A stretch of DNA of 41,847 bases from a virus, in the IMG/VR virus record IMGVR_UViG_3300023174_000312, positions 1 to 41,847 of that record. One strand, written 5' to 3'. Both the position numbers and the translations under genes were made by a program. Positions 1,478-39,247 of this stretch are shown one piece after another (positions within the stretch are counted from its first letter, which is position 1; every line of letters starts with the position of its first letter). Below the pieces are notes generated by a model. It made no database searches. It was not told where the DNA came from and worked only from the letters and a program-made list of their open reading frames with translations.

Positions 1478-4400
1478 ATGGCCACAACCACAAGACAAAC
1501 AGCGATATTTGGTGTAGAAGATTGGAAACAGATCTATCAAACCTATCGCGAAGCCGACTTTCAAAGTTATGACTTTGAAACACTGCGCAAAAGCTTCATT
1601 GATTACCTGCGTTTGTACTATCCTGAAACGTTCAATGACTACATTGAATCTTCAGAATTTATAGCCTTGCTGGATGTGATGGCGTTCATGGGTCAAGCAC
1701 TGGCCTTTCGTACAGACCTGAACACTCGTGAAAACTACATAGACACAGCTGAACGACGTGATTCAGTTGTGCGTCTTGCTAACCTTGTGAGCTACACAGC
1801 CAAGCGCAACACAGCCGCTGAAGGTTTCCTCAAAGTATTCAATGTGTCGACCACTGAAAATGTTGTGGATTACAACGGCGTAAACTTGAGCAATGTCACT
1901 GTGAACTGGGCTGACCCTACCAACAACGACTGGCAAGAACAGTTCACAGCCATCATCAATGCTTCATTGGTAGACAGTCAAAAAATAGGTCGTCCAGGCA
2001 ATCGTCAGACCATTCTGGGCGTGAGAACTGACGAATACGCAATCAATTTTGTACCTGGTTTCTTGCCAGTGATTCCTTATTCGGCCACAATAGACAATGT
2101 GAACATGCCATTTGAAGCCATGACTTCAACGTCTGTGGGACGTGATTATGTGTATGAACCTGCACCTTCCCCCAACACAGTGTTCAACATGCTGTTTAGA
2201 AATGATCAGCTGGGCTTTCAATCAGCCAACACAGGATATTTTTTCTTGTTCAAACAAGGTGTGTTGCAGAATCAAGATTTTAACTTGGCTGAACGTGTGG
2301 CCAATCGCACTGTGGACATCAACATAGAAGGTGTCAACAACGAAGATCGTTGGTTGTTCCAGTTGGACAATGTGGGCAATATCAACAGACAATGGCAATA
2401 TGTGGACAATGTGTACACAGCAGCCGCACAACGAGACAATGCATTACAACCAGTGTACTCGGTTACTTCAAGAGCCAATGATCAGATCACCATGGTGTTT
2501 GGCGACGGTGTGTTCTCTGAAATTCCTGTGGGCATATTCCGTGCTTATGTTCGTGCAAGCAACGGTTTGCAATACATCATCAACCCTGAAGAAATGCAAA
2601 ACGTTGTGTTGCCCATCAGCTATACCGATCGCAATGGCAATTTGCAAACTATCACATTTACTTGCGGCATCACTCGTCCTGTGAGCAACAGTCAGGCACG
2701 TGAACCCATTGCTGAAATCAAACAACGTGCTCCTGCTAGATACTACACACAGAACCGCATGGTCAACGGTGAAGATTACAACCTCTTTCCGTACACTGCT
2801 TACAATTCAATTATCAAAAGCAAAGCATTGAATCGTGCGTCAATTGGCACCAGTCGTTATCTTGACCTTGTGGACAACACCGGCAAGTATTCGAGCACCA
2901 ACACATTTTCAAGTGATGGCGGCCTATGGCGTCAAAACATTCTGCCTACCATATTGTTTTCTTGGACCAATCGCAACGACATTGCTGATGTTATTACCAA
3001 TCAAGTTCAACCAGCCTTGATTGGGCCCACAGTCAAACAGTTTTACTACGAAAACTTTCCAAGAATTACTTCCACCACTCAACCAACAGGAATCACCTGG
3101 TTAGCGGGATACACTTGGAATCAAAGTACCACAATGGCCAATGAAACCACTGGCTATTTTAGAAACACCACTACCAGTGCCACATGGCCCAATGGCACAC
3201 CCATTCCCATTGGTGTGACCACTACCACAATGTTTCAGTATGTGATACCTGGCAGCTTGATCAAGTTTGTGCCACCCACAGGTTACTACTTTGACCGCAA
3301 CAACAGACTGGTACAAGGCACCGCCATGCGAGCCGACGAACGCATGGAAATTTGGGCCAGCCCACAACAGATCATTGGTGATGGGTACAATGGCGGCAAA
3401 GGCAATTTGCCTTCGGGTGCAGGACCTGTCACAATCAACAACTTTGTGCCCTCAGGCGCCATTGTTGACACAATTATTCCGCTGTTTGTCACAGACCTGC
3501 CCAACGCAGTAGAACAAGCCGTAACTGAGCAACTGTTGTTGTATCGCAATTTTGGTCTGGGTTATGACAGCAATGGCAGCATCACTGGCACACCTTACAC
3601 CTGGTACATTATAACCAGCACCAATCTTGATGCGTATACCGGACCCAGTCATCCTGCTGCCTGGAGCCAACAGTACGCTGGCAATACCTCAGGTGCCAAT
3701 CTTGATGCGTCTTGGATGATACAATTTGTGGTGCAAAATCAAAACTACACTATCACGTTCCGTGGACTGAGTTACAATTTTGGATCAGTGTTACAAACAC
3801 GTTTTTTCTTCTACGAAGATCAACTGGTATATGACAGCCGCACAGGCACAATTATCAAAGATTTTATCAATGTGCTGGCGGTGAACACACAACCCAACAG
3901 CACACAATCACTACCTGGTGATATCTATACCACCATAATTGGACAGCCGGTTGAAAGCGATGGTTACGTTGATGACTTTCAAGTACTGGTAAGTTATCGA
4001 GACAGTGACAATGACGGAGTGCCTGACAATCCTGACTTCTTTGACGAGATCGTGGGACCAGCGTCAGCCTCAGGACCGTTTGTGTTCTTGCAACAAACTG
4101 TGGACTTTGACAATTTGCAACGCTACTTGTTGGTAGAACCGGGCATTGTGAATTATGATTATGCCACATTGGATGATATTGAACTGGCCAAAACTGAATG
4201 GACGCCAGGTCAAGTGTTTTATGCCTACACTGATCAAGCATTTTATCAACTCAGTATCTCAGTCACTGGTGTGAGAACTATTATCTCAGTGTCAGGATGG
4301 ATTGCCAGAACTGGACGTCAAGCATTGTATTTTCAATATCGTCACAACTCACCACTGACCAACAGAATTGATCCTGGTACAACCAATATCATTGACCTGT

Positions 4401-4957
4401 ATGTGGTAACTTTGAGCTACTACACTGCTTATCAAAATTGGTTGAGAGACACCACTGGCACTGTACCACAGCCAGACTTGCCCACAATTGATGAGCTGAC
4501 CACAGAATATCAAAACTTACAAGACTACAAAATGATCAGTGACAACATCATTGTGAATCCTGTGATTTTCAAACCACTGTTTGGGCCCAAGGCGGCACAA
4601 CAGTTGCGAGCCACAATCAAAGTTATTCGTGCGCAGAATTCAACAGCCAGCACCAGCGAAATCAAAAGTTCAGTGTTGGCAGAAATGAACGCATATTTCA
4701 GTATTGACAAATGGAATTTTGGTGATACTTTTTACTTCTCAGAGTTGGCAGCATACTTGCACAGACAACTAGGTACAATTATCAGTTCTGTGGTATTGGT
4801 ACCACTAGACCAACAAAAGAGCTTTGGTGACCTGTACGAAATTCGCAGCCAGCCCAATGAAATTTTTGCCAATGGTGCAACCATTGACAACATTGATGTG
4901 ATTGAAGCATTGACCAGTACCAATCTACGTACTGCCCCAGGCAGCGGAGTAATTTAA
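1478..4957 (+). CDS. 6: Baseplate wedge protein, gp6-like
   Basis: This is a 1,159-residue protein, well above the ~660 residues of T4 gp6. Residues ~35-110 carry the N-terminal signature typical of gp6-like wedge proteins: a YLRLYYPETFNDY segment, then ESSEFIALLDVMAFMGQAL and the ENYIDTAERRDSVVRLA helix region. In T4, gp6 forms the ring-like core of the wedge together with gp25 and gp53. The C-terminal part (~1000-1159) returns to a conserved pattern with KSFGDLYEIRSQPNE near its end. The long middle is rich in Asn, Thr and Tyr and beta-prone, and probably contains inserted domains. Its stop codon TAA shares one base with the ATG of the giant gene (TAATG), which suggests coupled translation. 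Confidence 0.85.
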   Translation: MATTTRQTAIFGVEDWKQIYQTYREADFQSYDFETLRKSFIDYLRLYYPETFNDYIESSEFIALLDVMAFMGQALAFRTDLNTRENYIDTAERRDSVVRLANLVSYTAKRNTAAEGFLKVFNVSTTENVVDYNGVNLSNVTVNWADPTNNDWQEQFTAIINASLVDSQKIGRPGNRQTILGVRTDEYAINFVPGFLPVIPYSATIDNVNMPFEAMTSTSVGRDYVYEPAPSPNTVFNMLFRNDQLGFQSANTGYFFLFKQGVLQNQDFNLAERVANRTVDINIEGVNNEDRWLFQLDNVGNINRQWQYVDNVYTAAAQRDNALQPVYSVTSRANDQITMVFGDGVFSEIPVGIFRAYVRASNGLQYIINPEEMQNVVLPISYTDRNGNLQTITFTCGITRPVSNSQAREPIAEIKQRAPARYYTQNRMVNGEDYNLFPYTAYNSIIKSKALNRASIGTSRYLDLVDNTGKYSSTNTFSSDGGLWRQNILPTILFSWTNRNDIADVITNQVQPALIGPTVKQFYYENFPRITSTTQPTGITWLAGYTWNQSTTMANETTGYFRNTTTSATWPNGTPIPIGVTTTTMFQYVIPGSLIKFVPPTGYYFDRNNRLVQGTAMRADERMEIWASPQQIIGDGYNGGKGNLPSGAGPVTINNFVPSGAIVDTIIPLFVTDLPNAVEQAVTEQLLLYRNFGLGYDSNGSITGTPYTWYIITSTNLDAYTGPSHPAAWSQQYAGNTSGANLDASWMIQFVVQNQNYTITFRGLSYNFGSVLQTRFFFYEDQLVYDSRTGTIIKDFINVLAVNTQPNSTQSLPGDIYTTIIGQPVESDGYVDDFQVLVSYRDSDNDGVPDNPDFFDEIVGPASASGPFVFLQQTVDFDNLQRYLLVEPGIVNYDYATLDDIELAKTEWTPGQVFYAYTDQAFYQLSISVTGVRTIISVSGWIARTGRQALYFQYRHNSPLTNRIDPGTTNIIDLYVVTLSYYTAYQNWLRDTTGTVPQPDLPTIDELTTEYQNLQDYKMISDNIIVNPVIFKPLFGPKAAQQLRATIKVIRAQNSTASTSEIKSSVLAEMNAYFSIDKWNFGDTFYFSELAAYLHRQLGTIISSVVLVPLDQQKSFGDLYEIRSQPNEIFANGATIDNIDVIEALTSTNLRTAPGSGVI

Positions 4958-7900
4958 TGGCACGTACAAGATCAGTTGATTTCTTACCACAAATTTTTCA
5001 AACTCCGGTCAACAAACAATTCTTGGCTGCCACTCTTGACCAAATGGTACAAGAGCCTAAATTTAAAAAGACTCAAGGCTTCATTGGGCGCACAGTGGGC
5101 CCTGGTGTCAACCCCAACGACAAGTATGTTGTAGAACCAGACAAAACTCGCCAGGACTATCAGCTGGAGCCAGGGGTCATCAGTCTTGAGCCAGATACCG
5201 ACAACATCAAAAACGTCATAACATATCCTGGCATAAATGATGCCATTGGATTTCAAGGTGGCGATCAGGCCAGACCTGATCAACTGTACAACAGCGAGTA
5301 TTACACTTGGGATCCTTTTGTAGATTATGATTCATTTGTAAACTTCAGCCAATATTTCTGGGTACCCACAGGTCCACAAACTGTGGAAATAAACACCGGC
5401 GGAATACCTGCCACTGACAATTTTGAAGTCACAAGAGAAAATGGTGTTTACACATTCTCTGGAATTACCGGCAACAATCCCACAATTGATCTTGTGCGCG
5501 GCGGCAACTACACTTTCCAAGTGGCACAAAATACCAAAGAAACTGTGAATTATCGGGTGACCAACAGTGGCACCAGTTCATATCTAATAGATCAACTGCC
5601 CAATCCAACACTGACGTTGGCACGTGGTAACACTTACGTGTTCAATCTCACTCTGAGTGCGCCATATCCTTTTTGGATCAAAACTGCCATAGTACAAGGC
5701 ACCGGCAGTGCGTACAATTCTGGAGTCACACGCAACGGCAGCGCCACTGGGTTGGTGACATTTACTGTGCCTCAAGATGCTCCTAACACTTTGTATTATG
5801 TGGCCGAAAATCAATCCAATTTGTATGGTACATTGAACATTGTTGATGGTACTCCAGGCACTGGTCCAGGATTTTGGATTCAAACCAATCCAGGTACGTC
5901 GGGAGTTTTGCCTTACACACCCAATATTAGTGATCGAGACGTTTTGGGCGTGGCCAACAACGGAGAAGATCTTGGTGTAGTCACTTTCAATGTGCCGCAA
6001 AGAACAGCGCAACAATTTTATTATGACCTAACAGATGTAGGTCCAATCGATTTGTTGACAACATTGGATTTTGATCAAATTAACAATCAACCCTTGAATG
6101 AGTTTATTGCAACTTACAATGGTATTGATGGCGTCACTTACCTTGATGCTCGCACTTTGGTATTTGTAAATGACACAGACAACGGATGGGTACAAACTAC
6201 ATTTTTTGATCCCTTGCCTAGATTAAACTCATTCAATGGAAAAGTTGGCAGCTACGATTCCATTGACTTTGATTTAGCAACCACGGTGCCATTGGCTGAT
6301 CGATATCAAGTGTGGCAAATAAACATTGTTGACCGCGAAGGTGTGGACTACATCAGTCTAGCAAAAATCAGCAATGTCAATCCCAATGAAAAGTTTACTG
6401 TGCTTTATGGCGCCACCTACAGTAGCACCAGCTGGTACAAACTTGCCACAGGATATTTCAAACAAATTCCATTGTTGACTGCCGTGCTGGACGAGTTGTA
6501 TTATCAAGACGGTACAGATCCAGAAATATTTGGCCGCATTAGATTACTAGAACAAACTGAATCCAATACAATTTTTATTGATCAGATTTTAGGTCAGACC
6601 AGTTACACATCTCCTAATGGTGTGGTGTTTACTAATGGATTAAAAGTCAAATTCACTGGAGACATTTTGCCTGCTAGTTACGGATCGGGCACATCGTCAG
6701 TCACCTGTACGGACACAGTTGGTGGGTCTAATTATATCACGTGCGAAACCACTGCTGGTTTGTACGAAGGTGAACAAATTATATTCAATGCCAGCACCTT
6801 TGGTATTGTTGCAGGTCAAACTTATTACATCAAGTCAATTAGTGCAAATGGCGTGCAATTTTCAATATCCACCGTGGAAGGTGGAGCAGCAGTAGCACTA
6901 GGTACTGGCGCCTACCAAGTGGCTGCTACAGCATTCAGTTTGAATGAATACTATGTGTCAGGAGTAGGCACAGCAATTGAATTGCTGCCGGTTAGAAATT
7001 TTGTCACGCCAGAAAGCTATGTAGAAGATGCCAATGACAGCACCATTGCAACTGAACCTGATCAACTGGATTACCTCACCATTGATCGAGCAAGTCAAGA
7101 TCTAAATCCTTGGACTCGTAGTAATCGCTGGTTCCACATAGACGTACTTCAAGCCACTGCCAGTTATAACAACACCGTGGCTGATCTCGACAACAACTAT
7201 CGAGCCAAACGTCCCATCATCAGTTTTAGGCCAGGTATCCGACTGTACAACATGGGCACCCAGGGCAAACAACCAGTTGACATAATTGACTTTGCTGAAA
7301 CTGATGCACTCAGCAACATTGAAGGCAGCACTGGATATAGCACAGATGGATACACACTGGTTGATGGCAGCAGAGTAATTTTTGCTGCTGATCTTGATGC
7401 CAATGTGCGTGACAAAATTTATATCGTGCAATTTATCACGCCAGACACTGTGCCGCCATTGATTGCACAACCCATAATTCATTTGGTGTTGGCCAGTGAT
7501 GGCGAAGTGCTGTTGGATCAATCCACAGTGTGTTTGTACGGCAACACCAATCCCGGCAAAACATTTTGGTATGATGGTATTGAATGGACGTTGGCACAAC
7601 AAAAGACCGCTGTCCAACAAGCACCACTGTTCAACGTTTATGATCTGAATGGCATCAGCTTTGGCGACAGAGCCACATATCCATCCAGCACATTTGTAGG
7701 CAGCAAGTTGTTCAGTTATGCAGTGGGCGACACCACTATATTAGATCCTGTGTTGCAATTTCCTTTGCAGTATCTCAACATCAACAACGTTGGTGATATT
7801 GTGTTTGAAAACAACCTGTACAAAGATACATTTTTGTATGTTGAAGACAATGTGTCAATCACCACAGACATCAGCTCAGGCGCTGCAAGAGAGTATGCTG

Positions 7901-10900
7901 ATAGAACAATTTATAAAAAATTGATTGGATGGCAAACAGCCGCGGCTACCAGTCAGCAGTACCAACAATTTAAATTTACCTACACTGGGCAAACACTCAA
8001 GCTGGACATTGCAGTGGGCACTGCCACAGTGATGCCACCTTTGAAAATTTATGTGGGTTCTAATTTTATAAAACCAGAAAAGTACAGTTACACTCTGGGA
8101 ACCAATAGTACAACCATTACTCTGGTAGACACATATCTACCAACTGATATCATTGAAGTGTTGGCGTTAAGTGATCAAACCAGTGCTACAGCATTTTACC
8201 AAGTTCCAATTAATTTAGAAAACAATCCGCTGAACGGCAACAGCCCAAGTTTTACACTAGGCACCATTCGTACTCAATATGAAAGTATTTGTGAAAATTT
8301 ATCAACCCTGATTGGTCCAATTACCGGTGCCAACAACACTAGAGACCTGGGCAACATAGTACCTTATGGCCTGACTATTTTGCAACAGAGTTCTCCGCTG
8401 ACCTTGGCTGGGTATTTTTTACGCAGTGAAAAATTCAACATATTTGCCAGCTTGCAGTACAACAGCAACGAATATTTGAAATTCAAAGGACAGATGTTGA
8501 ATGTTGTCACACAGCAGACCATACAAGAATCAGACACCACTAGTGAAGTGCTTGATACTGTAATGGCAGACATCACCTTGGGTCGCGTGGAAGCACAGCC
8601 GTTTTATTGGAGCGACATGCTGCCAGCTGGCATGGTGTATCAGACTACCACATACACAGTGTCAAACACCACGTCAGATACATTTGATACCATACAAGTT
8701 TACAACTACACATCAGCCAACTATCTTGGAATGAACGTGTATTTGAACAATGTGATTCTCACACGAGATCTTGATTATGTTGTGGCCACAGATGGTCCAC
8801 GCATTACAATTTTAACTGGTCTTGTCATGGGAGATGTGTTGTTGTTGCAAGAGTATTCTGCAACATATGGCACATTTGTTCCAAACACTCCAACCAAAAT
8901 GGGCTTGTACCCAGCGTTTCGTCCTGAAATTGTTGTGCAGAAAACCACCAATGGCACACAAACAGTTATTGTGGGGCATGATGGCAGCATTACAAAAACA
9001 TTTGGAGACATACGTGACCAAGTGTTGTTGGAATTCGAAACACGGATATTCAACAATTTAAAATTGGACGGAAATCCTGTTCCAATTGAATTGGCCGATG
9101 TCATACCTGGACAATTTAGAACCACTGGTTACAGCATAGACGATATCAACACCATTCTGGCCACAGACTTTTTGAGTTATGTGGCCTGGAACAAACTGGA
9201 TTACAAAACACAAAACTATCAAGTCAACAATGAGTTTTCTTGGAACTACAGCGGTAGCCAAAGTCGACTGGATAATGATTTTTTGCCTGGTGCCTGGCGC
9301 GGTATCTATCGCTACTACTATGACACACAACAACCTGAAGTGACTCCGTGGGAAATGTTGGGCTTGAGTATCAAACCACTTTGGTGGGACACCTTGTATG
9401 GTGTGGGCCCTTACACACAAGACAATTTGGTATTGTGGGATGACATAGCGGCAGGATACATTGCTGATCCTATCAATCCAAGATTTGTACCAGCATATGC
9501 TCGTCCAGCATCGTACACATCAACCGATCCCGCTGATCCAACATATGCTGGGCCACGCGAAGGTGACTGGACCACAAGTCCTTACAGACAAGGACCATAT
9601 CCTCAGTTGCAACCAGTGGTGCCCACCGGTGACGAAGGTGAGTTGTTGAGCCCATTCAATGCTGTGGTAGGAACATACAACGATCAAACATTCCGTAAGA
9701 GCTGGAGCATTGGCGACGGCGGCCCAGTAGAAGCGTCATGGTGGAATAGCAGTGCATATCCGTTTGCAGCCATGCGACTGTTGGCGTTGACTCGTCCTGC
9801 CAAATTTTTTGCATTGTTTGCTGATCGTGACTTGTACAAGTACAATAACGATTTTGACCAATATCTCTACAACAATCGTTACAGATTGAATGCTCGAGAC
9901 ATTGAAGTCTACGGCAACGGAGTCAGCAAAGCCAGTTATATCAATTGGATTGTGGATTACAATCGTCAAAGCGGATTGGACAGCACAAAAGAACTCACTG
10001 CGGATCTTGATTTCCTTGACGTAAGACTGTGTTACAGAATGGCCAGTTTCAGTGACAAACAGTACATTAAAATTTACACTGAAAAATCCAGTCCCAATTC
10101 GGTCAATACCACACTGTTGATTCCTGACGAAAGTTACGATCTTGTGCTGTATAAAAATCAGCCGTTTGATCGTGCCAGTTATTCTGCTGTGGTAATACAA
10201 AAAGTTGTGGGCGGATACGCTGTGTTTGGTTACAGTACCACACAACCATTCTTTAACGTGGAACAAAGCCAGTTCACGGGGCAATTACAAACCTACGATG
10301 TGGCCGGTATTACAATTCAAGTTCCTACTTTTTACACTGGCACGGTCACACAAGTTCCATATGGATACATCTTTGCAGATGAAACTGCGGTCAGTACTTT
10401 TTTACTAGGATACGGGCAGTATCTAGAACGTCAAGGTTTGATTTTTGATGACGTGACCAACAACTATATTCTAAGTTGGAGTCAGATGGTCACAGAATTC
10501 CTGTACTGGAGCCAACAAGGTTGGGATGACAATGCCTTGATCAACCTCAATCCACTGGCATTTAGATTACAGGTAACTCGCCCACAAGCAGTGGTTGACA
10601 GCGTGGTAGCACAAACCAGTGAAAACATTATCCTAGATCAAAATCGTCAAGAATTGGCCACTCGCAATCTTGTGATCACACGCATTGACAATACCTTCAT
10701 AGTAGAGCCTGCAACAGATCAAACACTCAGTCAAATTGATTTAAAATACACCTCTTATGAACACATGATAGTGTTGAACAACGCCAGTGCGTTTGGTGAC
10801 TTGATCTATCAACCCATAACTGGCGCACGTCAAAGCAGACTGACACTAATTGCTGCCACCACTACTGAGTGGAATGGTTCAGTTGACGCCCAAGGTTTTA

Positions 10901-13900
10901 TTCTCAATCAAGACAATGTGCAAGACTGGTCTCCATATCAAACGTATACCAAAGGCCAAATTGTAAAATACAAAGGTGCCTATTGGTCAGCAGCCTACAT
11001 TGTGCAACCCACAGAAATATTCAATGCCAACGACTGGTTGGCCAGCGACTATACACAAATTGAACTGGGATTGTTGCCCAACTTGGCCAACAAAGCCAAT
11101 CAACTGCAAAACAGTTACAACATCAACACAGCCAATCTGGACAGCGACAATGATTTGTTGAGTTACGGCCTGATTGGCTTTAGACCACGTCAGTACATGG
11201 CATCATTAAATCTTGACGATGTCACACAACTCAATGTATACAGACAGTTCTTGGGATCAAAAGGCACCATACTCAGTGCTGAATTATTTTCACAGGCCAA
11301 TCTTGGCAAGGAATCAGCAGACTACAACATTTATGAAAACTGGGCGGTACAACGTGCAGTATACGGCGCCAATGCCAACCGCAGTTTCTTCCAATTACGA
11401 TTGAATCGTGCATTGCTGGACTCTAATCCCAGTCTTGTTCAAGTGGTCTTGCCACAACAGACCAGCAAAGCAGATCAAGCTGTTTTGGTATCAGACATCT
11501 GGAGACAAAGCTACAATATAACATCTCCCGAAATATTACCAGTTACCACAACCCTGCCAACAGATTCTGCATTGCCCACAGCAGGATATGTGAATTTAGA
11601 TGATGTTGATATCACAGTATTTGATATCAATGATACTTTTAGTTTGGCTGCCAACCTTGATGCTATTGGTGTTGGTACCAATATTTGGGCAGCCAAAATT
11701 AATTCTTTCAATTGGGCCATTTATCGAGCACAATCAGTGCCAGGTATTATTGCTCACGTGTGTGACAACTTGGATGGCACCAGCTTGGTAATATTCTCTG
11801 AACAGCACGGACTCAAAGTCAATGACAAACTGATAATCAGATTCTTTGACGCCGAAGTAAACGGAGTTTACACTGTGTTGTCAAGACCCAGTCTTGACAA
11901 GGTCACTATTGCATTTAGTTTTACCGGTGACCGAACAGTGGTCAATGGAGTTGGTATTGGATTCACATTAGAAACACAACGTGTGTCACAGGCCAGTGAC
12001 GTGTTGAATTTGCCTTATGCCAATACTATTCGACCAGGAGCCAAAGTTTGGGTAGACAACAATGGTGCTGATCTGTGGACAGTGTTAGAAAAACAAGAAG
12101 TATTCTCCGGCATCTCTGAACTGGCACCTGTGGAAGTAGACGAAGGTGAACAATACGGTAGTAGTATTGCCCAGGCACAAAATCGTACTGCTGCCTTGGT
12201 TGGCAGTCCAAGATATCGATTCCCAATAGGGGCCACTCAGTGGAGTATTGCAAACACCTATGCCACAAATGACATTGTGTTTGTGCTGGATCCTGTACAA
12301 ACTGAATTTTTCCAAGCTGTACAACCAGTACCTACCAGTCCTCCTGTGCCAATCTCCAATACTGCATACTGGACTCCGTACTCATTGAGCAGTTTGCCGC
12401 GCAAGGGTGGAGTGTATGTGTATGTGAAGAGTGACAGCAATGTGTACTCACCAATTTCGCCTCTGGCACCGTTGGACGCTGTGCTGACTCTGGATCGATT
12501 GGATGTCAGCGGTGGTGCATTCAATGGACAAACGGCTGCTCGCGGGTATGGTACCAGTGTAGACTTTGGCAATCAGACCTGGGCAGCCGCTGGTGCACCA
12601 AACAGCCTGGGTTCCACTGGACTGGTGGACAATGGTTATGCCACAGTAATCTATCGAGATCCACAGTTGGCAAGACCTGGACAAATTCCCTATGGCCAAT
12701 GGCAGTTGTTGACCAGTCCCGGTTCTCTCACAGTCGCAGAAGAATTTGGCTACAGTGTATCAGTCAGCCTGGATGAACGTTGGATGTACATTGGTGCGCC
12801 CGGTGTTAACTCTGTGTACGCATACGGTCGAGTAGACTGGGAAAATCAAAGAGTGCAGGCACTGGGTGATGGTGTTACTACCACATACGCTATTAGCAGT
12901 GCGATTCAAATTGATGCCAGCACTCAATTGACTGTGAGCGTGGCCGGTGACGAACAGTTCCTTGGCACAGATTACACAGTGGTTGATTCATTGTCCGCAG
13001 TTAAATTTACCACAGCCCCTGCTGAAGGTGATGCTGTTGAAATTTTGAGAACCAGTCGCGAGTTACTGGATTATCAAACATATTTCAATGTGGCAGGCTC
13101 GGGGGGATCAGGCTCAGGAGTTCAATTTGACATCACTCGTGTTAGAGGTACAGTACAAGTTTTTCTGGCTGATGGCGGAACTGGATATACTGCTGGCGAT
13201 GACATAACTATTCTTGCAACCAGTTTTGGCGGCGGGACCAGTCCTGCTAATGACATTACACTAACTGATGTAACTATATCAACTGGCGGTGTGATTACAG
13301 CCTGGACTAGCCTCACATACACCCCACCTGCATTGGCCACGGTGTTTTCGTTGAATGAATATTTGTACACCGCCAACAACATCAACAGTTTTTCAGTGTT
13401 AGTCAACAATACATTACAACGTCCCAATATTGATTATACATTCAGTACCGTCACAAAAGATTTGACATTTGTCAACAGTCCAGCAGCTGGATCAACTATT
13501 CTTGTGAGAGCCGAAGGGTATTTTGTATATTCAGGCACCATAGTCAATCCAGCCAGCACAGCTGGCAATAGATTTGGGCACAGCGTCAGCACCAGTACCG
13601 ATGGACGTCAGGTACTGATCTCTGCTCCGTATACCACTGTTGATACCAATGCTGAGGCAGGCACAGTGTATGTGTACGATCGTGACGTACAACGATTCAT
13701 ATACGGAACAGATGGATCTACTGTGACATTTACTGTGTTGGGTACAGTGTCAGCACCAGTCAGCGTGTTGGTCAACAATGTGTTTTTGACCAATGAATTG
13801 GATGCAGCGCCAGGCGCGACCAACACATTCTCTGTAAGTGGTAACATTGTCACAATCAACGGTGATTTACAAATTGGTGACATAATTGAAATTGAAACCA

Positions 13901-16900
13901 ATGCGTTCAGCTTGGTACAAACAATAAATCAAAACACAGTTGAAAAGTTTTCAAACTACGGATACGCCACTGACCTGTGTCAATATAATTGTAGCCTGTA
14001 TGTGGGTGCGCCCAACAGCAGTGTGCAAAATTTCAAAGGTGGTGTGGTAGAACGCCAAGTAAATCAAAGTCGTGCATACGGTATTATCACCGCTCTCAAT
14101 GCCAATCCCGCCCTGACCAGCGGCAATACCATACGTGTGAACAATCAAGATGTTGTTGTGCCATCTGCATGGAATAGCGCATCGACCTACTCCACAAACA
14201 CCATTGTTTACAATTACAGTTCTGCCACAACAGTGACAACAATTTACGTGAGTTTACAAAGTGTACCAGCTGGCACTGCACTGACCAACACATCTTATTG
14301 GAACACTGTCACAACAACCATGATCACTGCCAGTGGACAGATTCGTGCGTTAGCAGCACAAATCAATGCGGATGTGCCCAATGTCAATGCCACAGTTGAC
14401 GTCACCGGGTATTTGACTTTGGCAGTAAAAAATTCATCGGCAGCGCCAGTGGGAGACAAACTACAAGTGGCGCCTGGGTCAATTGGAACCACATTTGATG
14501 ACATTGGTTTTGACACATTTGTGTTTACACAAACTATTTTGAGTCCATATCCTGTGGACTTTGCTGGTTTTGGCACCAGCTTGAACATTGATGACACAGC
14601 CGTGAACCTGGTGGTAGGTTCACCACGGGGCACGTTGTATTTGATCACATTATTTGATGTCATTACCAACACTGACGGCAACACAGTAGAAACTGATTTT
14701 GACGAAGGAGCTACTGATTTCTTTGATCAGACCATACAAAGTGGTGCAGTGTACACTTATGATTTGCTGTCAAGTTCAAGTTCTTCTGTGGCCAATCCTG
14801 ACAAATTTGTGTTTGGACAACAAATCAGCAGTACAAACATAGCATCATATGATCGATATGGAACTGCTGTGAACTACACTGACGGCGTGCTGTTTACTGG
14901 TGCGCCAGGCAACGAATTTGGTGACAGCACACTCAGTGCCAACTATGGTAGAGTGTTTGTTAGTGTGAATCCTAACAGGGTGCCTGCATGGACTGCACTA
15001 AGAGTTCAGCAGCCTGTGGTTGATATTAGACTGTTAAATTCTGTATACAGCTATGATCGTGTGACTTCAGCGGTGACCCAGTACTATGATTTCTTCAACC
15101 CATTACAAGGCAAGATACTAGGAGCCGCACGTCAAAACTTAGACTATATTGGTGCAATTGATCCAGCCAGCTACAACATAGGTCCTGTAAATATTCGTGG
15201 AACGACCTGGGGCGCAGGATATGTGGGCGAAACATGGTGGGATACCAGTACAGTGAGATTTATTGACCCTGGCCAAGATGATATTGTGTATGCAAGTCGT
15301 CGTTGGGGGCAAGTGTTTCCAGGCAGCACAGTGGATGTGTATCAATGGGTAGCAAGCCCAAACCCACCATCCGCCTATGTTGGCGAAGGCATACCATTTA
15401 GTTCAGTCAGCTATGTAGTGAACACTGTGTTGAGTCAAGCTGGCATTTTCAACACTGAATACTATTTCTGGGTACGAGGAATAACCGCAACTGCCACACA
15501 AAAAGGCAAAACCTTGCCCATCAGCACTGTGGCCAACTACATTGAAAATCCCCGAGCAAGTGGTATAACATACATTGCTCCTATCAATGCCAGTACCATT
15601 GCACTGTACAATGCAACCGATTACATAGAAGCTGAAGATACCATCATCAGCATTGAGTTTGACAAAGAATTCAACAATGATAACGTTCACGTTGAATATG
15701 AATTGATTGCTCAAGACAAAGCAGACGGCTGGCTCAGCAACAATTTGTATCGAAAACTGCAAGACAGTTTTTGCGGTGTAGACACTGCTGGTAATCTTGT
15801 GCCAGACGTGAATCTTGGCCCAGCTGAGCGATATGGAGTGCAATTCCGTCCAAGACAAAGCATGTTTACGGATAGATTTGCAGCACTAAAAAATTACCTA
15901 GTCCGTGCTAACACAGTGCTGGCTCAGTATACCATATCAGAAAATCGCACATTCGTGCTGTTGAACAGCCGCGAATTTGAACCCAGTGCCACAACAACTG
16001 TGAATGGTGTGACCACTGTTAATTGGAACACCCGTGTGGCCAACTTGGAAATTTTAGGATTCCAAAAGATCGAAGATGTACCGCTGGGATACAAGTATTT
16101 GGTAGCAACAGACTCTAGAAATCGCGGGTTGTGGACAATTTATCAAGTGATAGAGACCACCCAGGTCAGTGGCACTGTTAGAGAACTGCAACTGAATCGT
16201 GTGCAAAATTATGACACACGCCAGTACTGGAGTTATATCAATTGGTATCGACCTGGTTACAACAGCAGTGCTAAGATCATTGCTGAAGTTGCTAATTTTG
16301 CCGCATTGTCCACATTGAACGTGGCAGTAGGCAGCAGTGTAAAAGTCACAGCCAATGGTCAAGGAAAATTTGAAATTTATATACGCACTGTGACTGGCTA
16401 TGAGCGTGTGGGCCTACAAGATGGCACCATAGAATTCTCAGCTGAATTGTGGGACTATGCACTGGGACGATTTGGATTTGATGTTGAAGTATTTGATGCT
16501 CAATATTTTGACCAAGAGCCTGTGATTGAAACACGAAAAATTATTCAGGCCATCAATGAAGAATTGTTTATTGATGACTTGTTGATTGAACGTAATCGTG
16601 CATTGACACTGATGTTTAATTTTGTGCTGAGTGAATTTGGTGCTCCTGAATGGCTGGTAAAAACTTCATTGATTGATGTCGAACACAGAATTCGTGCGCT
16701 GTTGCCATTCCAAAATTACAGTCGAGACAATCAAGAGTTTGTGCTGGACTACATTCAAGAAGTCAAGCCTTACCATGTGTCCATTCGCGAATTCAATCTG
16801 CGTTACAACGGTGCTGATGAGTTCTTTGGAGATATGACTGACTTTGATCTACCAGCCTACTACAACACCGCGCTGGACATGCCACAATTTACCAGTCCCA

Positions 16901-19900
16901 TACTGTTGCCGTATAACCATGGCACAGCATTCAACTCAGAAACCAATAATCTTAGTGATTTGTCGTCAAGTTCCACAGTGTGGGCTGACTGGCCTTACAG
17001 CCAATGGTATAACAATTATTTGTTGGCTGTGGGTTCTGTAGTCATAGTTAACACAGGGTCGGGGTATAGTTCTCCTCCAACAGTGATCATCACTGCCAAC
17101 CCTAATGACCCAGCACCAACAGAAGCCGCTGCTGCCACAGCGGTACTAAATGGTGCTGGGCAAGTTGTTGCTATTAATGTTACAAATTCAGGTTCAGGAT
17201 ATAGATCAACTCCGACTATAACATTCGACGGAGGATTACCAGGAACAGGCGTTACTGCATACCCCCGAATGACCAATGATGTTGTGCGACAATTCCGTAC
17301 AGTAATCAGATACGACCGATTCCAATATCAAACAGCAGTACAAACTTGGAGTTCTGATGGTACCTACGAAAATGGTACCCTGGTACGCTATGACAATCGT
17401 GTGTGGTCCGCTGCCAATGCTGACGGCAGTTCGGCTGTGGTAGGACCCACATTTGACCTAGAAAATTGGCAGGAAGTCAACGCTGCAACTTACGTTTATC
17501 CTGGTAGTAATCAACCCACTGGATTGACCGGCGTTGACCGTACCATGGGTTTGTACGTGCCAGGAGTAAATTCCCCAGGACTAGAGTTGCCATTGTTGGT
17601 AGACGGAGTTGATTACCCTGGCGTACAAGTCTGGGGAGAATATTTTGCAGAAACACGCCGTCTGGACGCTGACTATCAAAGTGAATTTGCTGACATTTAT
17701 CTTGGCACACGTTTCAGTGATATCAACGTAGATGGTGGAGAATTTGTTGGACCTTACGAAGGTCACGCACCCGAAGAGTTGGTCAATGGAGCTGAATACG
17801 ACACCATGGACATGCGCATTTACACACGTCCGGGGTCAGATTGGACCTTTGACGGACATGGATTCCAGGTCAGCACTGTTCGTTATACATATACCCCAGC
17901 AATTACTGATACCTACAGCTGGGCCAACGTAGTTCAAAATGCTTATCAAATTGTTGTGACCAATTTAACCACTGGGAATACATTAAGTGAAGATATCAAT
18001 TACACTGTTAACTGGGCCAATCAAACTATCACTGTTATTTCCAACGTTGCTGACGGAGCATTGATCAACATTGATGTGTATGAAATCGGCGGCGGCAGTC
18101 AACTGTATAGAGGCAATTTTGTTGGCGAGGATGTCATAGCAGATGACAATACATTGTTGGTACCAGTGAGTTATGCACAAATGGTCCAAACATACGTGTT
18201 TATAAATGGACACTTGGCATCAAAGCCTATCTTGGCACCGTACACTGATAGCATACTCTGGAATCTAAACAACACATATCAAAGTCTTGACATTGTGTTC
18301 AATGACAATGTGCTCACCGTGACCGGTACTGATGGAGTGTACAATACAGTGACCTGTAACAATACATCAGCACTGACAGTGGGACAACCTATTGTGTTTT
18401 CTGGCACTGGGTTTGGTGGTATTGTGGTCAATCAAGAATATTATGTGCAGGCCATTGCCAATGGCACACAGTTCTTTATCAGCACTGAAGCAGGAGCCAC
18501 AACACCAACAACCTTGACCACTGCGTCAGGTGCCATGACTGGCAATCCTCAAGGCACATATTATCGTGCTATTCAAACAGTGATTCCAGGAATCCAGTTG
18601 ACCAATACTGATTATTGGTTGCCGTTTATTCCAACACAGCGCACCAAGGTAACAATTTCTGAAATATTGACTGCTACAGACGGCATTGCAGTTTTGGTGC
18701 TGGGCGACGCCGCCAGTATTGCAGTCAACGAAACAGTTGAGTCGGGTAATGTTGTAGTGTTGGCCGGCTCAGTCTCATCATTGGCTGTGGGGCAAACAGT
18801 TACTTTTTCGGGGTACAGTCTGGGAGGTTTACAAACTAAAACTGATTATCAGATTTTGACCATTAATGCCACAGCCAACTCAATTAGCATAACTGAAGAT
18901 GGCTCTACTCCAGTTGCATTGATTGATGATCAGGCTGTGTGGACCGGAGAACTTGTTGCAAAATTTGTTCCTGTTGATTATAGATCTTGGAGTACTCCAG
19001 TATCAGAAACATTCATAGTTGACACAACCATTAGAACCAATGGATTTGTCACATTAGAAAACGTGCCCACAGGCACTAATCCCGCCAACATGATTGTTAA
19101 CGTCAATGGCTTAAGAATAGTCGGACCGACAGACATACCGTGGATTGGCGATGGTACCACAGCCAGCTTTGGATTACCACAACGTCTGGGCACTAGCTTT
19201 TTGCAGTCTACTATCGATGCACCCAACGAAATACAAGTTTGGGTCAACAACGTGCTACAGAAACAATCATTTGGTTCTCAAATTGGAACTTACAGCGTGA
19301 CCAACTGGGACGGCAGCAACACTCCCGGCCGTCAAGTAGTATTTGATACTCCACCAGAATCTGGTGATCAAATATTGATTGCAGTTTCTACACTGGCCTG
19401 GACAAGTTTTGCATATGACCCATCATCACCAGCCTTTACCAATGAATTGCAAATTGTACCTTTGTTGAATTTGGGTGACGTAATTGAAGTGATCACCTGG
19501 AACAACACCGGCCAACAAAACATTGCCACATTAACGTTCCAAGGTCCTGTGACAATTTCGGGCTCGGCCATTGTTCAAGCATACGATACCACAGACTATG
19601 ACAGCCCTACATTGAATAATCCATTCCAGACACTGCCTGGTGAATTTGACTTCCAGGCAGGAACCGCAATAAACAGCAATGAGTTTGATTTGTTAAGAAA
19701 CAATGTGATAGGCAGTCGTTTATGGGTCAATTTGGATGGTGTCAGATTGGTTGATGGGCGAGACTTTACTGTATCTGGACAATATTTGATCCTGGCGTCG
19801 GGCACAATAAACAACAGCCAACAGTTGGTGGTAACTGAATTTACCAACAGCGTGGTGCCTGATGCAGTAGAATTTAGAATATTCCAAGACATGCGAGGAG

Positions 19901-20595
19901 TACAAGCCACATACAGAATGACCCCAGCAACTACCACATCATTGGTGCAAGATCTCTCAGCCACAGCTGACATCATCTACGTTGAAAATGCTGCCGCACT
20001 GAGTGAACCCGACCTGCCCAGCGGTGTGTTTGGCCTGATTACCATTGGTGGAGAACGTATCATGTACAGAGCACGGGACACTGTGGCCAACACAGTTTCT
20101 GGACTCATGCGCGGTACAGCCGGAACTGCGGCTAACAGTCACTACGCGAATGAAGCAGTGTATGACATTGGACGTGGTAACTTGCTGAGTTCAACTTACC
20201 AAGACTATGTTGTGAGTGACAGTACCATGGCTGATGGATCAACCACAGTGTATTACGCACCCAATATCAATATTTCAGACTTTGGTGACAGCAGTTCAAT
20301 ATATACCGAAAGCATTGAAGTGTATGTGGGCGGTCAACGCCAATACAACTACAGTCAAACTCAAGCCACATCGCAATACCGCTATATTGTGACAGATTTT
20401 GGGCCATTGGCAATAGAATTCATTGTTGACAATGATCCAGTGAGTCCGCTGTTGCCACCAGCCGCAGGCAGCGAAGTCACTATCCTGCAACGGCGTGCAT
20501 TGAGCTGGTATGAGCCTGGCGCAACCACTGCCAGTGACGGTGTTGCATTGCAAGAAACTGACACAGAGGCCGCAAGGTTTTTGTGCAACAGATAA
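4957..20595 (+). CDS. Giant modular virion protein (5,212 aa), probable baseplate or tail-fibre component
   Basis: One uninterrupted 15.6-kb frame encodes a 5,212-residue protein, about 37% of the window. The N-terminus (ARTRSVDFLPQIFQTPVNKQ) and C-terminus (VALQETDTEAARFL) match the style of very large virion proteins encoded after gp6 in marine T4-like phages. Visible modules, in order: two interleaved cupredoxin-like domains (~170-350); a GQ-F-G-type beta module (~581-662); a CBM5/12-like motif (~1990); seven FG-GAP-like blade motifs between ~2400 and ~3320, with other domains inserted; further CBM5/12-like motifs (~2427, ~3070, ~4130, ~4433); a conserved helical segment (~3870-3950) with a VKPYHV motif; GSGY repeats (~4034, ~4079); and many modules of the pattern 'V-x-V-N-x, dYtv, aP-x-GD-x-I'. 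An RGTAGT element lies near the C-terminus. Its place after gp6 suggests a gp7-like or fibre role, but I cannot assign a T4 homologue. It probably acts outside the virion in host contact. Confidence 0.85.
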   Translation: MARTRSVDFLPQIFQTPVNKQFLAATLDQMVQEPKFKKTQGFIGRTVGPGVNPNDKYVVEPDKTRQDYQLEPGVISLEPDTDNIKNVITYPGINDAIGFQGGDQARPDQLYNSEYYTWDPFVDYDSFVNFSQYFWVPTGPQTVEINTGGIPATDNFEVTRENGVYTFSGITGNNPTIDLVRGGNYTFQVAQNTKETVNYRVTNSGTSSYLIDQLPNPTLTLARGNTYVFNLTLSAPYPFWIKTAIVQGTGSAYNSGVTRNGSATGLVTFTVPQDAPNTLYYVAENQSNLYGTLNIVDGTPGTGPGFWIQTNPGTSGVLPYTPNISDRDVLGVANNGEDLGVVTFNVPQRTAQQFYYDLTDVGPIDLLTTLDFDQINNQPLNEFIATYNGIDGVTYLDARTLVFVNDTDNGWVQTTFFDPLPRLNSFNGKVGSYDSIDFDLATTVPLADRYQVWQINIVDREGVDYISLAKISNVNPNEKFTVLYGATYSSTSWYKLATGYFKQIPLLTAVLDELYYQDGTDPEIFGRIRLLEQTESNTIFIDQILGQTSYTSPNGVVFTNGLKVKFTGDILPASYGSGTSSVTCTDTVGGSNYITCETTAGLYEGEQIIFNASTFGIVAGQTYYIKSISANGVQFSISTVEGGAAVALGTGAYQVAATAFSLNEYYVSGVGTAIELLPVRNFVTPESYVEDANDSTIATEPDQLDYLTIDRASQDLNPWTRSNRWFHIDVLQATASYNNTVADLDNNYRAKRPIISFRPGIRLYNMGTQGKQPVDIIDFAETDALSNIEGSTGYSTDGYTLVDGSRVIFAADLDANVRDKIYIVQFITPDTVPPLIAQPIIHLVLASDGEVLLDQSTVCLYGNTNPGKTFWYDGIEWTLAQQKTAVQQAPLFNVYDLNGISFGDRATYPSSTFVGSKLFSYAVGDTTILDPVLQFPLQYLNINNVGDIVFENNLYKDTFLYVEDNVSITTDISSGAAREYADRTIYKKLIGWQTAAATSQQYQQFKFTYTGQTLKLDIAVGTATVMPPLKIYVGSNFIKPEKYSYTLGTNSTTITLVDTYLPTDIIEVLALSDQTSATAFYQVPINLENNPLNGNSPSFTLGTIRTQYESICENLSTLIGPITGANNTRDLGNIVPYGLTILQQSSPLTLAGYFLRSEKFNIFASLQYNSNEYLKFKGQMLNVVTQQTIQESDTTSEVLDTVMADITLGRVEAQPFYWSDMLPAGMVYQTTTYTVSNTTSDTFDTIQVYNYTSANYLGMNVYLNNVILTRDLDYVVATDGPRITILTGLVMGDVLLLQEYSATYGTFVPNTPTKMGLYPAFRPEIVVQKTTNGTQTVIVGHDGSITKTFGDIRDQVLLEFETRIFNNLKLDGNPVPIELADVIPGQFRTTGYSIDDINTILATDFLSYVAWNKLDYKTQNYQVNNEFSWNYSGSQSRLDNDFLPGAWRGIYRYYYDTQQPEVTPWEMLGLSIKPLWWDTLYGVGPYTQDNLVLWDDIAAGYIADPINPRFVPAYARPASYTSTDPADPTYAGPREGDWTTSPYRQGPYPQLQPVVPTGDEGELLSPFNAVVGTYNDQTFRKSWSIGDGGPVEASWWNSSAYPFAAMRLLALTRPAKFFALFADRDLYKYNNDFDQYLYNNRYRLNARDIEVYGNGVSKASYINWIVDYNRQSGLDSTKELTADLDFLDVRLCYRMASFSDKQYIKIYTEKSSPNSVNTTLLIPDESYDLVLYKNQPFDRASYSAVVIQKVVGGYAVFGYSTTQPFFNVEQSQFTGQLQTYDVAGITIQVPTFYTGTVTQVPYGYIFADETAVSTFLLGYGQYLERQGLIFDDVTNNYILSWSQMVTEFLYWSQQGWDDNALINLNPLAFRLQVTRPQAVVDSVVAQTSENIILDQNRQELATRNLVITRIDNTFIVEPATDQTLSQIDLKYTSYEHMIVLNNASAFGDLIYQPITGARQSRLTLIAATTTEWNGSVDAQGFILNQDNVQDWSPYQTYTKGQIVKYKGAYWSAAYIVQPTEIFNANDWLASDYTQIELGLLPNLANKANQLQNSYNINTANLDSDNDLLSYGLIGFRPRQYMASLNLDDVTQLNVYRQFLGSKGTILSAELFSQANLGKESADYNIYENWAVQRAVYGANANRSFFQLRLNRALLDSNPSLVQVVLPQQTSKADQAVLVSDIWRQSYNITSPEILPVTTTLPTDSALPTAGYVNLDDVDITVFDINDTFSLAANLDAIGVGTNIWAAKINSFNWAIYRAQSVPGIIAHVCDNLDGTSLVIFSEQHGLKVNDKLIIRFFDAEVNGVYTVLSRPSLDKVTIAFSFTGDRTVVNGVGIGFTLETQRVSQASDVLNLPYANTIRPGAKVWVDNNGADLWTVLEKQEVFSGISELAPVEVDEGEQYGSSIAQAQNRTAALVGSPRYRFPIGATQWSIANTYATNDIVFVLDPVQTEFFQAVQPVPTSPPVPISNTAYWTPYSLSSLPRKGGVYVYVKSDSNVYSPISPLAPLDAVLTLDRLDVSGGAFNGQTAARGYGTSVDFGNQTWAAAGAPNSLGSTGLVDNGYATVIYRDPQLARPGQIPYGQWQLLTSPGSLTVAEEFGYSVSVSLDERWMYIGAPGVNSVYAYGRVDWENQRVQALGDGVTTTYAISSAIQIDASTQLTVSVAGDEQFLGTDYTVVDSLSAVKFTTAPAEGDAVEILRTSRELLDYQTYFNVAGSGGSGSGVQFDITRVRGTVQVFLADGGTGYTAGDDITILATSFGGGTSPANDITLTDVTISTGGVITAWTSLTYTPPALATVFSLNEYLYTANNINSFSVLVNNTLQRPNIDYTFSTVTKDLTFVNSPAAGSTILVRAEGYFVYSGTIVNPASTAGNRFGHSVSTSTDGRQVLISAPYTTVDTNAEAGTVYVYDRDVQRFIYGTDGSTVTFTVLGTVSAPVSVLVNNVFLTNELDAAPGATNTFSVSGNIVTINGDLQIGDIIEIETNAFSLVQTINQNTVEKFSNYGYATDLCQYNCSLYVGAPNSSVQNFKGGVVERQVNQSRAYGIITALNANPALTSGNTIRVNNQDVVVPSAWNSASTYSTNTIVYNYSSATTVTTIYVSLQSVPAGTALTNTSYWNTVTTTMITASGQIRALAAQINADVPNVNATVDVTGYLTLAVKNSSAAPVGDKLQVAPGSIGTTFDDIGFDTFVFTQTILSPYPVDFAGFGTSLNIDDTAVNLVVGSPRGTLYLITLFDVITNTDGNTVETDFDEGATDFFDQTIQSGAVYTYDLLSSSSSSVANPDKFVFGQQISSTNIASYDRYGTAVNYTDGVLFTGAPGNEFGDSTLSANYGRVFVSVNPNRVPAWTALRVQQPVVDIRLLNSVYSYDRVTSAVTQYYDFFNPLQGKILGAARQNLDYIGAIDPASYNIGPVNIRGTTWGAGYVGETWWDTSTVRFIDPGQDDIVYASRRWGQVFPGSTVDVYQWVASPNPPSAYVGEGIPFSSVSYVVNTVLSQAGIFNTEYYFWVRGITATATQKGKTLPISTVANYIENPRASGITYIAPINASTIALYNATDYIEAEDTIISIEFDKEFNNDNVHVEYELIAQDKADGWLSNNLYRKLQDSFCGVDTAGNLVPDVNLGPAERYGVQFRPRQSMFTDRFAALKNYLVRANTVLAQYTISENRTFVLLNSREFEPSATTTVNGVTTVNWNTRVANLEILGFQKIEDVPLGYKYLVATDSRNRGLWTIYQVIETTQVSGTVRELQLNRVQNYDTRQYWSYINWYRPGYNSSAKIIAEVANFAALSTLNVAVGSSVKVTANGQGKFEIYIRTVTGYERVGLQDGTIEFSAELWDYALGRFGFDVEVFDAQYFDQEPVIETRKIIQAINEELFIDDLLIERNRALTLMFNFVLSEFGAPEWLVKTSLIDVEHRIRALLPFQNYSRDNQEFVLDYIQEVKPYHVSIREFNLRYNGADEFFGDMTDFDLPAYYNTALDMPQFTSPILLPYNHGTAFNSETNNLSDLSSSSTVWADWPYSQWYNNYLLAVGSVVIVNTGSGYSSPPTVIITANPNDPAPTEAAAATAVLNGAGQVVAINVTNSGSGYRSTPTITFDGGLPGTGVTAYPRMTNDVVRQFRTVIRYDRFQYQTAVQTWSSDGTYENGTLVRYDNRVWSAANADGSSAVVGPTFDLENWQEVNAATYVYPGSNQPTGLTGVDRTMGLYVPGVNSPGLELPLLVDGVDYPGVQVWGEYFAETRRLDADYQSEFADIYLGTRFSDINVDGGEFVGPYEGHAPEELVNGAEYDTMDMRIYTRPGSDWTFDGHGFQVSTVRYTYTPAITDTYSWANVVQNAYQIVVTNLTTGNTLSEDINYTVNWANQTITVISNVADGALINIDVYEIGGGSQLYRGNFVGEDVIADDNTLLVPVSYAQMVQTYVFINGHLASKPILAPYTDSILWNLNNTYQSLDIVFNDNVLTVTGTDGVYNTVTCNNTSALTVGQPIVFSGTGFGGIVVNQEYYVQAIANGTQFFISTEAGATTPTTLTTASGAMTGNPQGTYYRAIQTVIPGIQLTNTDYWLPFIPTQRTKVTISEILTATDGIAVLVLGDAASIAVNETVESGNVVVLAGSVSSLAVGQTVTFSGYSLGGLQTKTDYQILTINATANSISITEDGSTPVALIDDQAVWTGELVAKFVPVDYRSWSTPVSETFIVDTTIRTNGFVTLENVPTGTNPANMIVNVNGLRIVGPTDIPWIGDGTTASFGLPQRLGTSFLQSTIDAPNEIQVWVNNVLQKQSFGSQIGTYSVTNWDGSNTPGRQVVFDTPPESGDQILIAVSTLAWTSFAYDPSSPAFTNELQIVPLLNLGDVIEVITWNNTGQQNIATLTFQGPVTISGSAIVQAYDTTDYDSPTLNNPFQTLPGEFDFQAGTAINSNEFDLLRNNVIGSRLWVNLDGVRLVDGRDFTVSGQYLILASGTINNSQQLVVTEFTNSVVPDAVEFRIFQDMRGVQATYRMTPATTTSLVQDLSATADIIYVENAAALSEPDLPSGVFGLITIGGERIMYRARDTVANTVSGLMRGTAGTAANSHYANEAVYDIGRGNLLSSTYQDYVVSDSTMADGSTTVYYAPNINISDFGDSSSIYTESIEVYVGGQRQYNYSQTQATSQYRYIVTDFGPLAIEFIVDNDPVSPLLPPAAGSEVTILQRRALSWYEPGATTASDGVALQETDTEAARFLCNR
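5461..6021 (+). other. Interleaved pair of cupredoxin-like domains in the giant protein
   Basis: A complete module spans residues ~213-297: it opens with NPTLTLARGNTYVFN, continues with PFWIKT and TFTVPQDAPNTLYY, and ends with YGTLNI. A second copy is split around it. Its first half is NPTIDLVRGGNYTFQV (~174-189); its second half is FWIQTNPGTSG (from 306) and VTFNVPQRTAQQFYY. This module type resembles plastocyanin-like domains of phage and bacterial surface proteins. The Cys, His and Met copper ligands are absent, so a purely structural role is likely. Confidence 0.55.
10924..11040 (+). other. CBM5/12-like carbohydrate-binding motif in the giant protein
   Basis: Residues ~1990-2028 read W-SPYQTYTKGQIVKYKGAYW, then a final DWL. 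This is the W...Y..G..V.Y.G..Y....W pattern of chitin- or cellulose-binding modules of the CBM5/12 type. It is the clearest of five such motifs; the others start near 12235, 14164, 17344 and 18253. Confidence 0.5.
12148..14910 (+). other. Seven FG-GAP-like propeller blades with inserted domains in the giant protein
   Basis: Seven repeats fit the pattern 'YG-x-S-V ... hydrophobic ... G-A/S-P', starting near 12154, 12546, 12742, 13572, 13954, 14562 and 14851. Examples are YGTSVDFGNQTWAAAGAP and FGHSVSTSTDGRQVLISAP. Seven is the blade number of integrin-type FG-GAP propellers. Spacing is uneven because CBM-like and beta-hairpin modules lie between blades. The fold is inferred from pattern only. 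Confidence 0.55.
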
Positions 20596-24211: not shown

Positions 24212-24520
24212 ATGGATACTAATGCCTTAGTTGCTCATGCACGAGCAAGATTTGATCATGCAGCCGCACGTCGGGTGCTAAAAGAAAAATACGAAGCACG
24301 GATGGTGTTTGCCCATGGGGGCGGTATGTGGCGTGCTGGGCCCGACTTGTTGACTGTACTACTAGCCTGCGCACAAGACAAGAATGTTGTGATCTTGGAC
24401 TTGTATGAAACTCCAGTACAGATCACTGTGACAGACTTGTTTGCTTTGGCACACGAACGCTGGCAAGAACAAATGAATGCATGGAAAGTGGAATGGGACG
24501 AACTGAGCCAAAAGCGTTGA
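24212..24520 (+). CDS. Conserved small phage protein of unknown function (102 aa)
   Basis: A soluble, mainly helical protein with FAHGGGMWRAGPDLLTVL in the middle and VVILDLYETPVQI before a C-terminal helix (MNAWKVEWDEL). I recognise this pattern (KYEA-x-FAH-x-GG, YETPV, MNAW) as a conserved hypothetical protein of T4-like cyanophages and relatives, with no assigned function. There are no membrane segments and no catalytic motif. ATG at 24212 is chosen because the N-terminal helix matches the expected length and the next Met is 30 residues in. It is the first gene of the right-hand block, starts only five bases after a TATAAT element and has no visible Shine-Dalgarno sequence. Confidence 0.75.
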   Translation: MDTNALVAHARARFDHAAARRVLKEKYEARMVFAHGGGMWRAGPDLLTVLLACAQDKNVVILDLYETPVQITVTDLFALAHERWQEQMNAWKVEWDELSQKR

Positions 24521-26065: not shown

Positions 26066-26397
26066 CCCCTGAAGAGTTTTGGTCTATACTGCACAACATG
26101 CCAGAACCCAGCCCGGTGTTTTATCGTTTGTATCACGATGATCAAGGGCATCCGCTATTCTACAGCATGGCAGATGAACCTGGTACATACATTGAGATTG
26201 ATCAGGAAACTTTTGCTCGCAGTGCCACCAACGTGCGTGTGCGCGACGGCCAGTTGGTAGAAGTAACATGGTCGACCACAACAAAATTGATTCCTGGCAA
26301 CTGTGGCACACCTTGTCATCCCGACAATGTTGCTGTCGTCGTTGCCGAGGATCAACCTCATACCCGCTGGAGTAAACGAACATATGAATCAAATTGA
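26062..26397 (+). CDS. Conserved phage protein of unknown function (111 aa)
   Basis: The N-terminal MTPEEFWSIL is followed by FYRLYHDDQGHPLFYSM and then PGTYIEIDQETFARSATNV. The C-terminus has GTPCHPDNVAVVV and PHTRWSKRTYE. I recognise this arrangement as a conserved hypothetical protein of T4-like cyanophages and relatives, usually near fibre or glycosyltransferase genes. No function is known to me and no catalytic motif is obvious. The ATG at 26062 overlaps the previous stop (ATGA). An in-frame TTG nine bases upstream is less likely. The last 14 bases overlap the next gene. Confidence 0.75.
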   Translation: MTPEEFWSILHNMPEPSPVFYRLYHDDQGHPLFYSMADEPGTYIEIDQETFARSATNVRVRDGQLVEVTWSTTTKLIPGNCGTPCHPDNVAVVVAEDQPHTRWSKRTYESN

Positions 26398-39149: not shown

Positions 39150-39247
39150 ACTGGATACGCAGGATTTGGGACAGAATCACATTGGAAATACGTTATCGTA
39201 AAAAATTAAAAGAACTTCGCAAACGTGATCCGTTTATCTACAAATGA
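39146..39247 (+). CDS. Very small basic protein (33 aa) with DPFIYK C-terminus
   Basis: ATG at 39146 opens a 33-residue frame starting MNWIRRIWDRITLEIRYRKK and ending RKRDPFIYK. It is strongly basic, with an amphipathic helix pattern (Trp, Ile and Leu on one side, Arg and Lys on the other), and could bind nucleic acid, membrane or a protein partner. I recall similar short proteins with a KKL...KRDPFIY ending in marine T4-like phages. Support for a real gene is strong: an ideal AAGGAG site, ATGA overlaps at both ends (previous stop and next start) and a late-promoter motif just upstream. Function unknown; a peptide substrate for the radical SAM enzymes is an untested idea. Confidence 0.75.
   Translation: MNWIRRIWDRITLEIRYRKKLKELRKRDPFIYK

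Follow-up and report, generated by a model that had tools for sequence, protein, structure and literature searches.

The alpha chains of integrins carry a propeller of seven FG-GAP blades arranged in one ring, which is closed by its first strand, and some integrins have a further domain inserted in the propeller, the alpha-I domain, which lies at the junction of blades 2 and 3. In jumbo phages, giant virion proteins of the phrog_10938 type, including those of RaK2 (ORF070w), Cassandra (PA5oct type), Atu_ph07 and CBB (gp236), are homologs of the protein described here and have the same flanking scaffold, but lack the propeller; for CBB gp236, 21 peptides were obtained by mass spectrometry of virions (PMC5259590). 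FG-GAP_2 repeats do occur elsewhere in this broad group of jumbo phages, in Sinorhizobium phage Phosso and in the Atu_ph07 'hemagglutinin', but these are encoded by separate genes, with dozens of repeats in the Phosso frames (3,702 and 3,182 aa) and a frame of 409 aa in Atu_ph07. In Phosso (PV764938.1), 64 FG-GAP_2 matches fall in 48386-94508, mostly in the 3,702- and 3,182-aa frames, a number that would need several tandem propellers, and the genes lie apart from the baseplate giant of that phage. The related jumbo phage CBB also has propeller domains in its Kelch-type proteins (CBB_550, CBB_552 and CBB_554), of which CBB_552 is present in the virion (PMC5259590), but these belong to the Kelch rather than the FG-GAP family and are separate genes, not an insertion in a baseplate giant. 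No description of a phage baseplate with an FG-GAP propeller was found in the open-access literature searched, which is not proof of novelty.

The window analysed here is a virus record of 41,847 bases, dominated by an open reading frame of 5,212 residues at 4957-20595 (+ strand, as are all features below) that encodes a giant virion structural protein, the carrier of the propeller. The phrog_10938 profile matched this protein on three stretches (E 2e-141, 2e-107 and 4e-64), representing the N-terminal scaffold and the scaffold following the propeller. The first base of the giant gene is the last base of a gp6-like baseplate wedge gene located directly upstream (1478-4957; PHROG 10646 'baseplate wedge subunit', E 3e-274; phrog_219, 6e-25), homologs of which were found in 68 phage records. 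The gene order in T4 is 6-7-8, and the slot of the giant after the gp6-like gene is the position of gp7. The label 'gp7' for the giant denotes gene position only; comparison of T4 gp7 with three scaffold-family profiles by hhalign showed no similarity, and T4 gp10 gave no match to the N-terminal profile of the family. Giant homologs of the phrog_10938 type also sit after gp6 in the phages checked, with the exception of Salicola phage SCTP-2. We consider it very likely that the giant is a baseplate protein; its propeller would be exposed on the outside of the baseplate. In SCTP-2 (MF360958.1), unlike the other phages checked, the gp6 homolog (231230-234970) is not adjacent to the homolog of the giant (127770-139193).

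A search of the 5,212-aa frame with the pattern [YF]G.[SA]...[GS][AS]P returned exactly seven matches, at residues 2400, 2531, 2597, 2873, 3001, 3205 and 3301, with motif-to-motif spacings of 131, 66, 276, 128, 204 and 96 residues. Composition-preserving shuffles of the motif region contained a mean of 0.03 motifs (maximum 2), and whole-protein shuffles a mean of 0.11. The sequence-only reading, which had claimed exactly seven 'YG-S-V ... G-A/S-P' motifs, all in this region, is borne out by these counts. The Pfam FG-GAP_2 model (PF14312) scored 31.5 bits in the window protein (cut-off 23) and matched 46/46 aligned members, the window included (E <= 0.01; best E 2.6e-19); the older FG-GAP model PF01839 gave no match to the window. 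Judged from these profile matches, the window repeats are genuine members of the FG-GAP_2 family. Profile-profile comparison indicated that most of the blades are mutually homologous, with uneven strength and blade 2 as the weak one, and a generic blade HMM picked up all seven, blade 2 included.

After alignment of 46 homologous propeller regions, an AlphaFold2 model of window residues 2335-3360 reached a mean pLDDT of 88.3 and a pTM of 0.88. Integrin alpha chains predominated among the PDB matches of this model in Foldseek, which also listed the tail structure of cyanophage A4 (E 1.3e-6). Alignment of the model with integrin propellers (VIA-align 2) covered 356-391 residues at 2.6-3.3 Å with Z scores of 35-39 and an identity of ~15-19%, and the match extended over the full length of the propeller, from model residue 47 (equivalent to integrin residue 1) to ~1015. 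When distant relatives were included in the profile, integrin alpha-4 was matched by sequence alone (E 5e-9). It is thus highly probable, on the strength of the model, that residues ~2381-3348 fold as one closed seven-bladed integrin-type (FG-GAP_2) beta-propeller. The single integrin-type propeller claimed in the sequence-only reading, for which structure prediction of residues ~2390-3340 had been proposed as a check of ring closure, was recovered as one predicted ring, and a model with separate units was not obtained. As model residue 47 aligns to integrin residue 1, in the integrin closing strand, the same closure is expected in the phage ring. The closing strand would be formed by residues ~2381-2389 (12097-12123; strand 50-55 of the model), which correspond to the first integrin strand in the alignment, and the ring-closing contact itself is predicted from this equivalence. 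The propeller had previously been placed at 12148-14910; the location was correct, and the extent was slightly short, since the strand that precedes motif 1 and the two final strands of blade 7 are also required for the ring, which therefore runs from ~12097 to ~14991.

Strands were assigned to blades by our own reading of the strands in the model, and each blade is supported by its motif, the blade HMM and the model strands. Blade 1 (12136-12501; motif residue 2400) is broken between strands 2 and 3 by a chitin-binding-like (CBM5/12-like) module at 12226-12399, whereas blade 2 (12532-12726; motif residue 2531) is without insert. Blade 3 (12727-13554; motif residue 2597) is broken between strands 3 and 4 by an insert of three modules (12847-13512). 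Blade 4 (13555-13938; motif residue 2873), which contains the best FG-GAP_2 stretch of the window, is broken at the same place by a module akin to those of blade 3 (13702-13872). Blade 5 (13939-14550; motif residue 3001), marked by a conserved CxxxC, is likewise broken between strands 3 and 4, by a flagellin-IN-like module (14080-14508) within which a CBM5/12-like module is nested at 14164-14331. In blade 6 (14551-14835; motif residue 3205), strands 2 and 3 are separated by a short insert, and blade 7 (14836-14991; motif residue 3301) completes the ring. The domains that the sequence-only reading had described as inserted between the blades are thus present as inserted modules, but lie mostly inside the blades, in hairpins. 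In this respect the phage ring differs from integrins, as its inserts are within blades and its blade 2-3 junction is short. DxDxDG calcium loops, which integrins possess and for which a search had been suggested, were absent from the phage blades of the near set, where none of the 67 sequences had one in any of the seven blades; in a distant set, a DxDxDG-like loop was found in 3/311 blade hits. A beta-chain partner, as in integrins, is not known for the phage propeller. The cysteines of the CxxxC pair (residues 3008 and 3012), located in the first blade 5 hairpin, are kept in 67/67 and 66/67 near relatives, respectively, and the sequence pattern makes it possible that they form a disulfide or a metal site replacing the missing calcium loop.

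The first module of the blade 3 insert matched the T7 tail-fibre N-terminal family PF03906 right at its cut-off of 25.2 bits (E 1.5e-5); this match is partial and borderline, covering positions 9-72 of 157, and was seen in 7/46 homologs. The third module of this insert is a homolog of the first (hhalign 97%), and the blade 4 insert is more weakly related to the first blade 3 module (hhalign 85% in one direction and 42% in the other). The blade 1 insert and the module nested in blade 5 are homologous to each other (hhalign 97%, E 1e-10). These two modules weakly resemble the carbohydrate-binding module family 5/12 in sequence: the window's own modules alone gave no match to CBM5/12 (PF02839), and one of 46 homologs matched it at 0.0014. 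The outer blade 5 insert is named for a match to flagellin-IN (PF07196; E 3.6e-4) that is under the cut-off. Among 67 near relatives, the CBM5/12-like module was present in blade 1 in 14 and nested in blade 5 in 30, as counted within the fetched sample. Pairwise identity among relatives is 60-75% for the blades and 44-65% for the inserts, so the inserts diverge moderately more than the blades and are not hypervariable.

The relatives were collected in similarity searches with the window propeller and with the Cassandra scaffold (up to 80 each, of >570 IMG/VR relatives). The generic blade model detected never more than seven blades, and often exactly seven, in 80 more distant homologs, as counted within a sample in which blades of partial or divergent contigs can escape detection. 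Blade spacings among relatives range from ~45-100 residues in largely bare rings (contigs L146, L147 and L151) to ~450 (L163); one subgroup of the propeller clade is largely bare, and the subgroup of the window is decorated. In L143, an apparently bare FG-GAP ring of ~400-450 residues lies at ORF residues ~1950-2290, in which the blade model detects three blades only. When 50,697 phage records were searched with the propeller by tblastn, nothing was returned at E 0.01, so that no phage in this collection has a recognisable close copy of the propeller, and no relative turned up in one scan of bacterial genomes.

Comparison with propeller-less relatives suggests how the ring arose. The scaffold segment ahead of the propeller (KVWVD...LWTVL, residues 2361-2378; 12037-12090) is contiguous in Cassandra and L156 with the segment that follows it, with KVWVD...W-V running directly into IR-Q..LVD, and the propeller therefore looks like a clean insertion. 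The conserved post-propeller scaffold (residues 3346-3610; 14992-15786), identified by alignment and tblastn, is common to RaK2, Cassandra and Atu_ph07, the giant-gene homologs of which contained no FG-GAP blades, and a gap of ~94-127 residues marks the insertion site in Cassandra and RaK2. A single change (SH-aLRT 99) accounts for the presence and absence of the propeller in a tree built from 78 post-propeller regions; this tree does not separate gain from loss. A single gain is the likelier reading, since the flanks are contiguous in relatives and several deep branches lack the propeller. Most likely, the whole propeller would have been inserted once at one fixed point of a jumbo-phage structural scaffold, and small modules would later have been added in hairpins of blades 1, 3, 4, 5 and 6. 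As the two ends of a closed propeller adjoin, a loop of the scaffold could accommodate such a ring while the scaffold itself stays undisturbed. A baseplate-wedge protein could acquire a full ring at one point and undergo stepwise decoration afterwards, with bare and decorated forms both extant, and the integrin-type head on the tail would be a marker of a large clade of uncultivated phages. An alignment of Atu_ph07 reaching into blades 1-2 was rejected, being of low quality and without an FG-GAP motif there. In the Atu_ph07 giant (L080), the corresponding stretch (residues ~1690-3180) is occupied by ~1,500 residues of different, GxGY-type repeats together with a CBM-like module close to the insertion point, which suggests that this point is an insertion hotspot. 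A model of the scaffold of the propeller-less relative L117 was poor (pLDDT 52), and fold searches with it gave nothing usable. Near the N-terminus of the window giant, residues 193-297 (5533-5847) matched the end of phrog_677, a baseplate wedge-tail fibre connector (E 2e-17); this domain shares 47.5% identity with a predicted cyanophage P-SSM2 protein and is common to many cyanophages. Recognisable domains can be hidden in giant proteins labelled merely 'virion structural protein'.

The reading we favour, with modest confidence, is that the ring was inserted once in a baseplate-wedge giant and serves on the baseplate exterior as an accessory platform for interactions. It is about an even call whether the propeller has an accessory role in adsorption or docking, in which the rigid ring would display its tail-fibre-like and carbohydrate-binding-like inserts, either to attach the phage to the host surface or to hold fibres that adsorb. 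This role is suggested by a ring that related phages lack, and which tolerates large inserts and bears modules of the tail-fibre type and perhaps of a sugar-binding type. The uneven spacings in the window (66 to 276 residues) and the weak relation of blade 2 to the other blades would suit seven separate beads, or parts of at least two different units, but such an arrangement is very improbable in view of the confident single-ring model and the full-length integrin propeller match; some relatives have uniform spacings of ~45-100, more than seven blades were never detected in relatives, and an upper limit of seven would be unexpected for independent beads. It is also improbable that the propeller has enzymatic or lectin (sugar-binding) activity of its own, located on the ring rather than on the inserts. 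Glycosidases and lectins do occur among beta-propellers, and nearby inserts resemble a carbohydrate-binding module, but the listed structural matches were overwhelmingly integrins, and the propeller region had no match to an enzyme family of Pfam.

A purely structural ring, docking neighbouring wedge proteins or the attachment ends of fibres with no host contact, is a possibility we rate as rather unlikely. Conservation is high in the blades and in several inserts, the ring is retained across a diverse clade, and one insert module matches the N-terminal domain of the T7 tail fibre, the part that anchors that fibre to the tail; against this, relatives build their baseplates without a propeller, and the chitin-binding-like modules vary among near relatives, which would be odd for a fixed docking surface. 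The identity of inserts relative to blades fits an outer surface, yet the difference is smaller than a receptor-binding tip would lead one to expect, and this mild divergence keeps pure fibre docking a serious rival. By analogy with integrins, one acquired FG-GAP ring might serve as a modular host-binding head, with its hairpin inserts, likened to the alpha-I domain, gained and lost to change binding; we regard this version as doubtful. The 'host-recognition hub' proposed in the sequence-only reading would likewise be an extrapolation from the features of the ring to its function. For the accessory platform that we favour, residues ~2381-3348 provide a defined domain suited to expression and testing.

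Downstream of the tail genes, the window (24481-41606) encodes several radical SAM proteins, two of them with SPASM domains, and a carbamoyltransferase, as identified by Pfam. This region forms a modification cluster unusual for a phage, and these genes adjoin open reading frames that by eye resemble glycosyltransferases.
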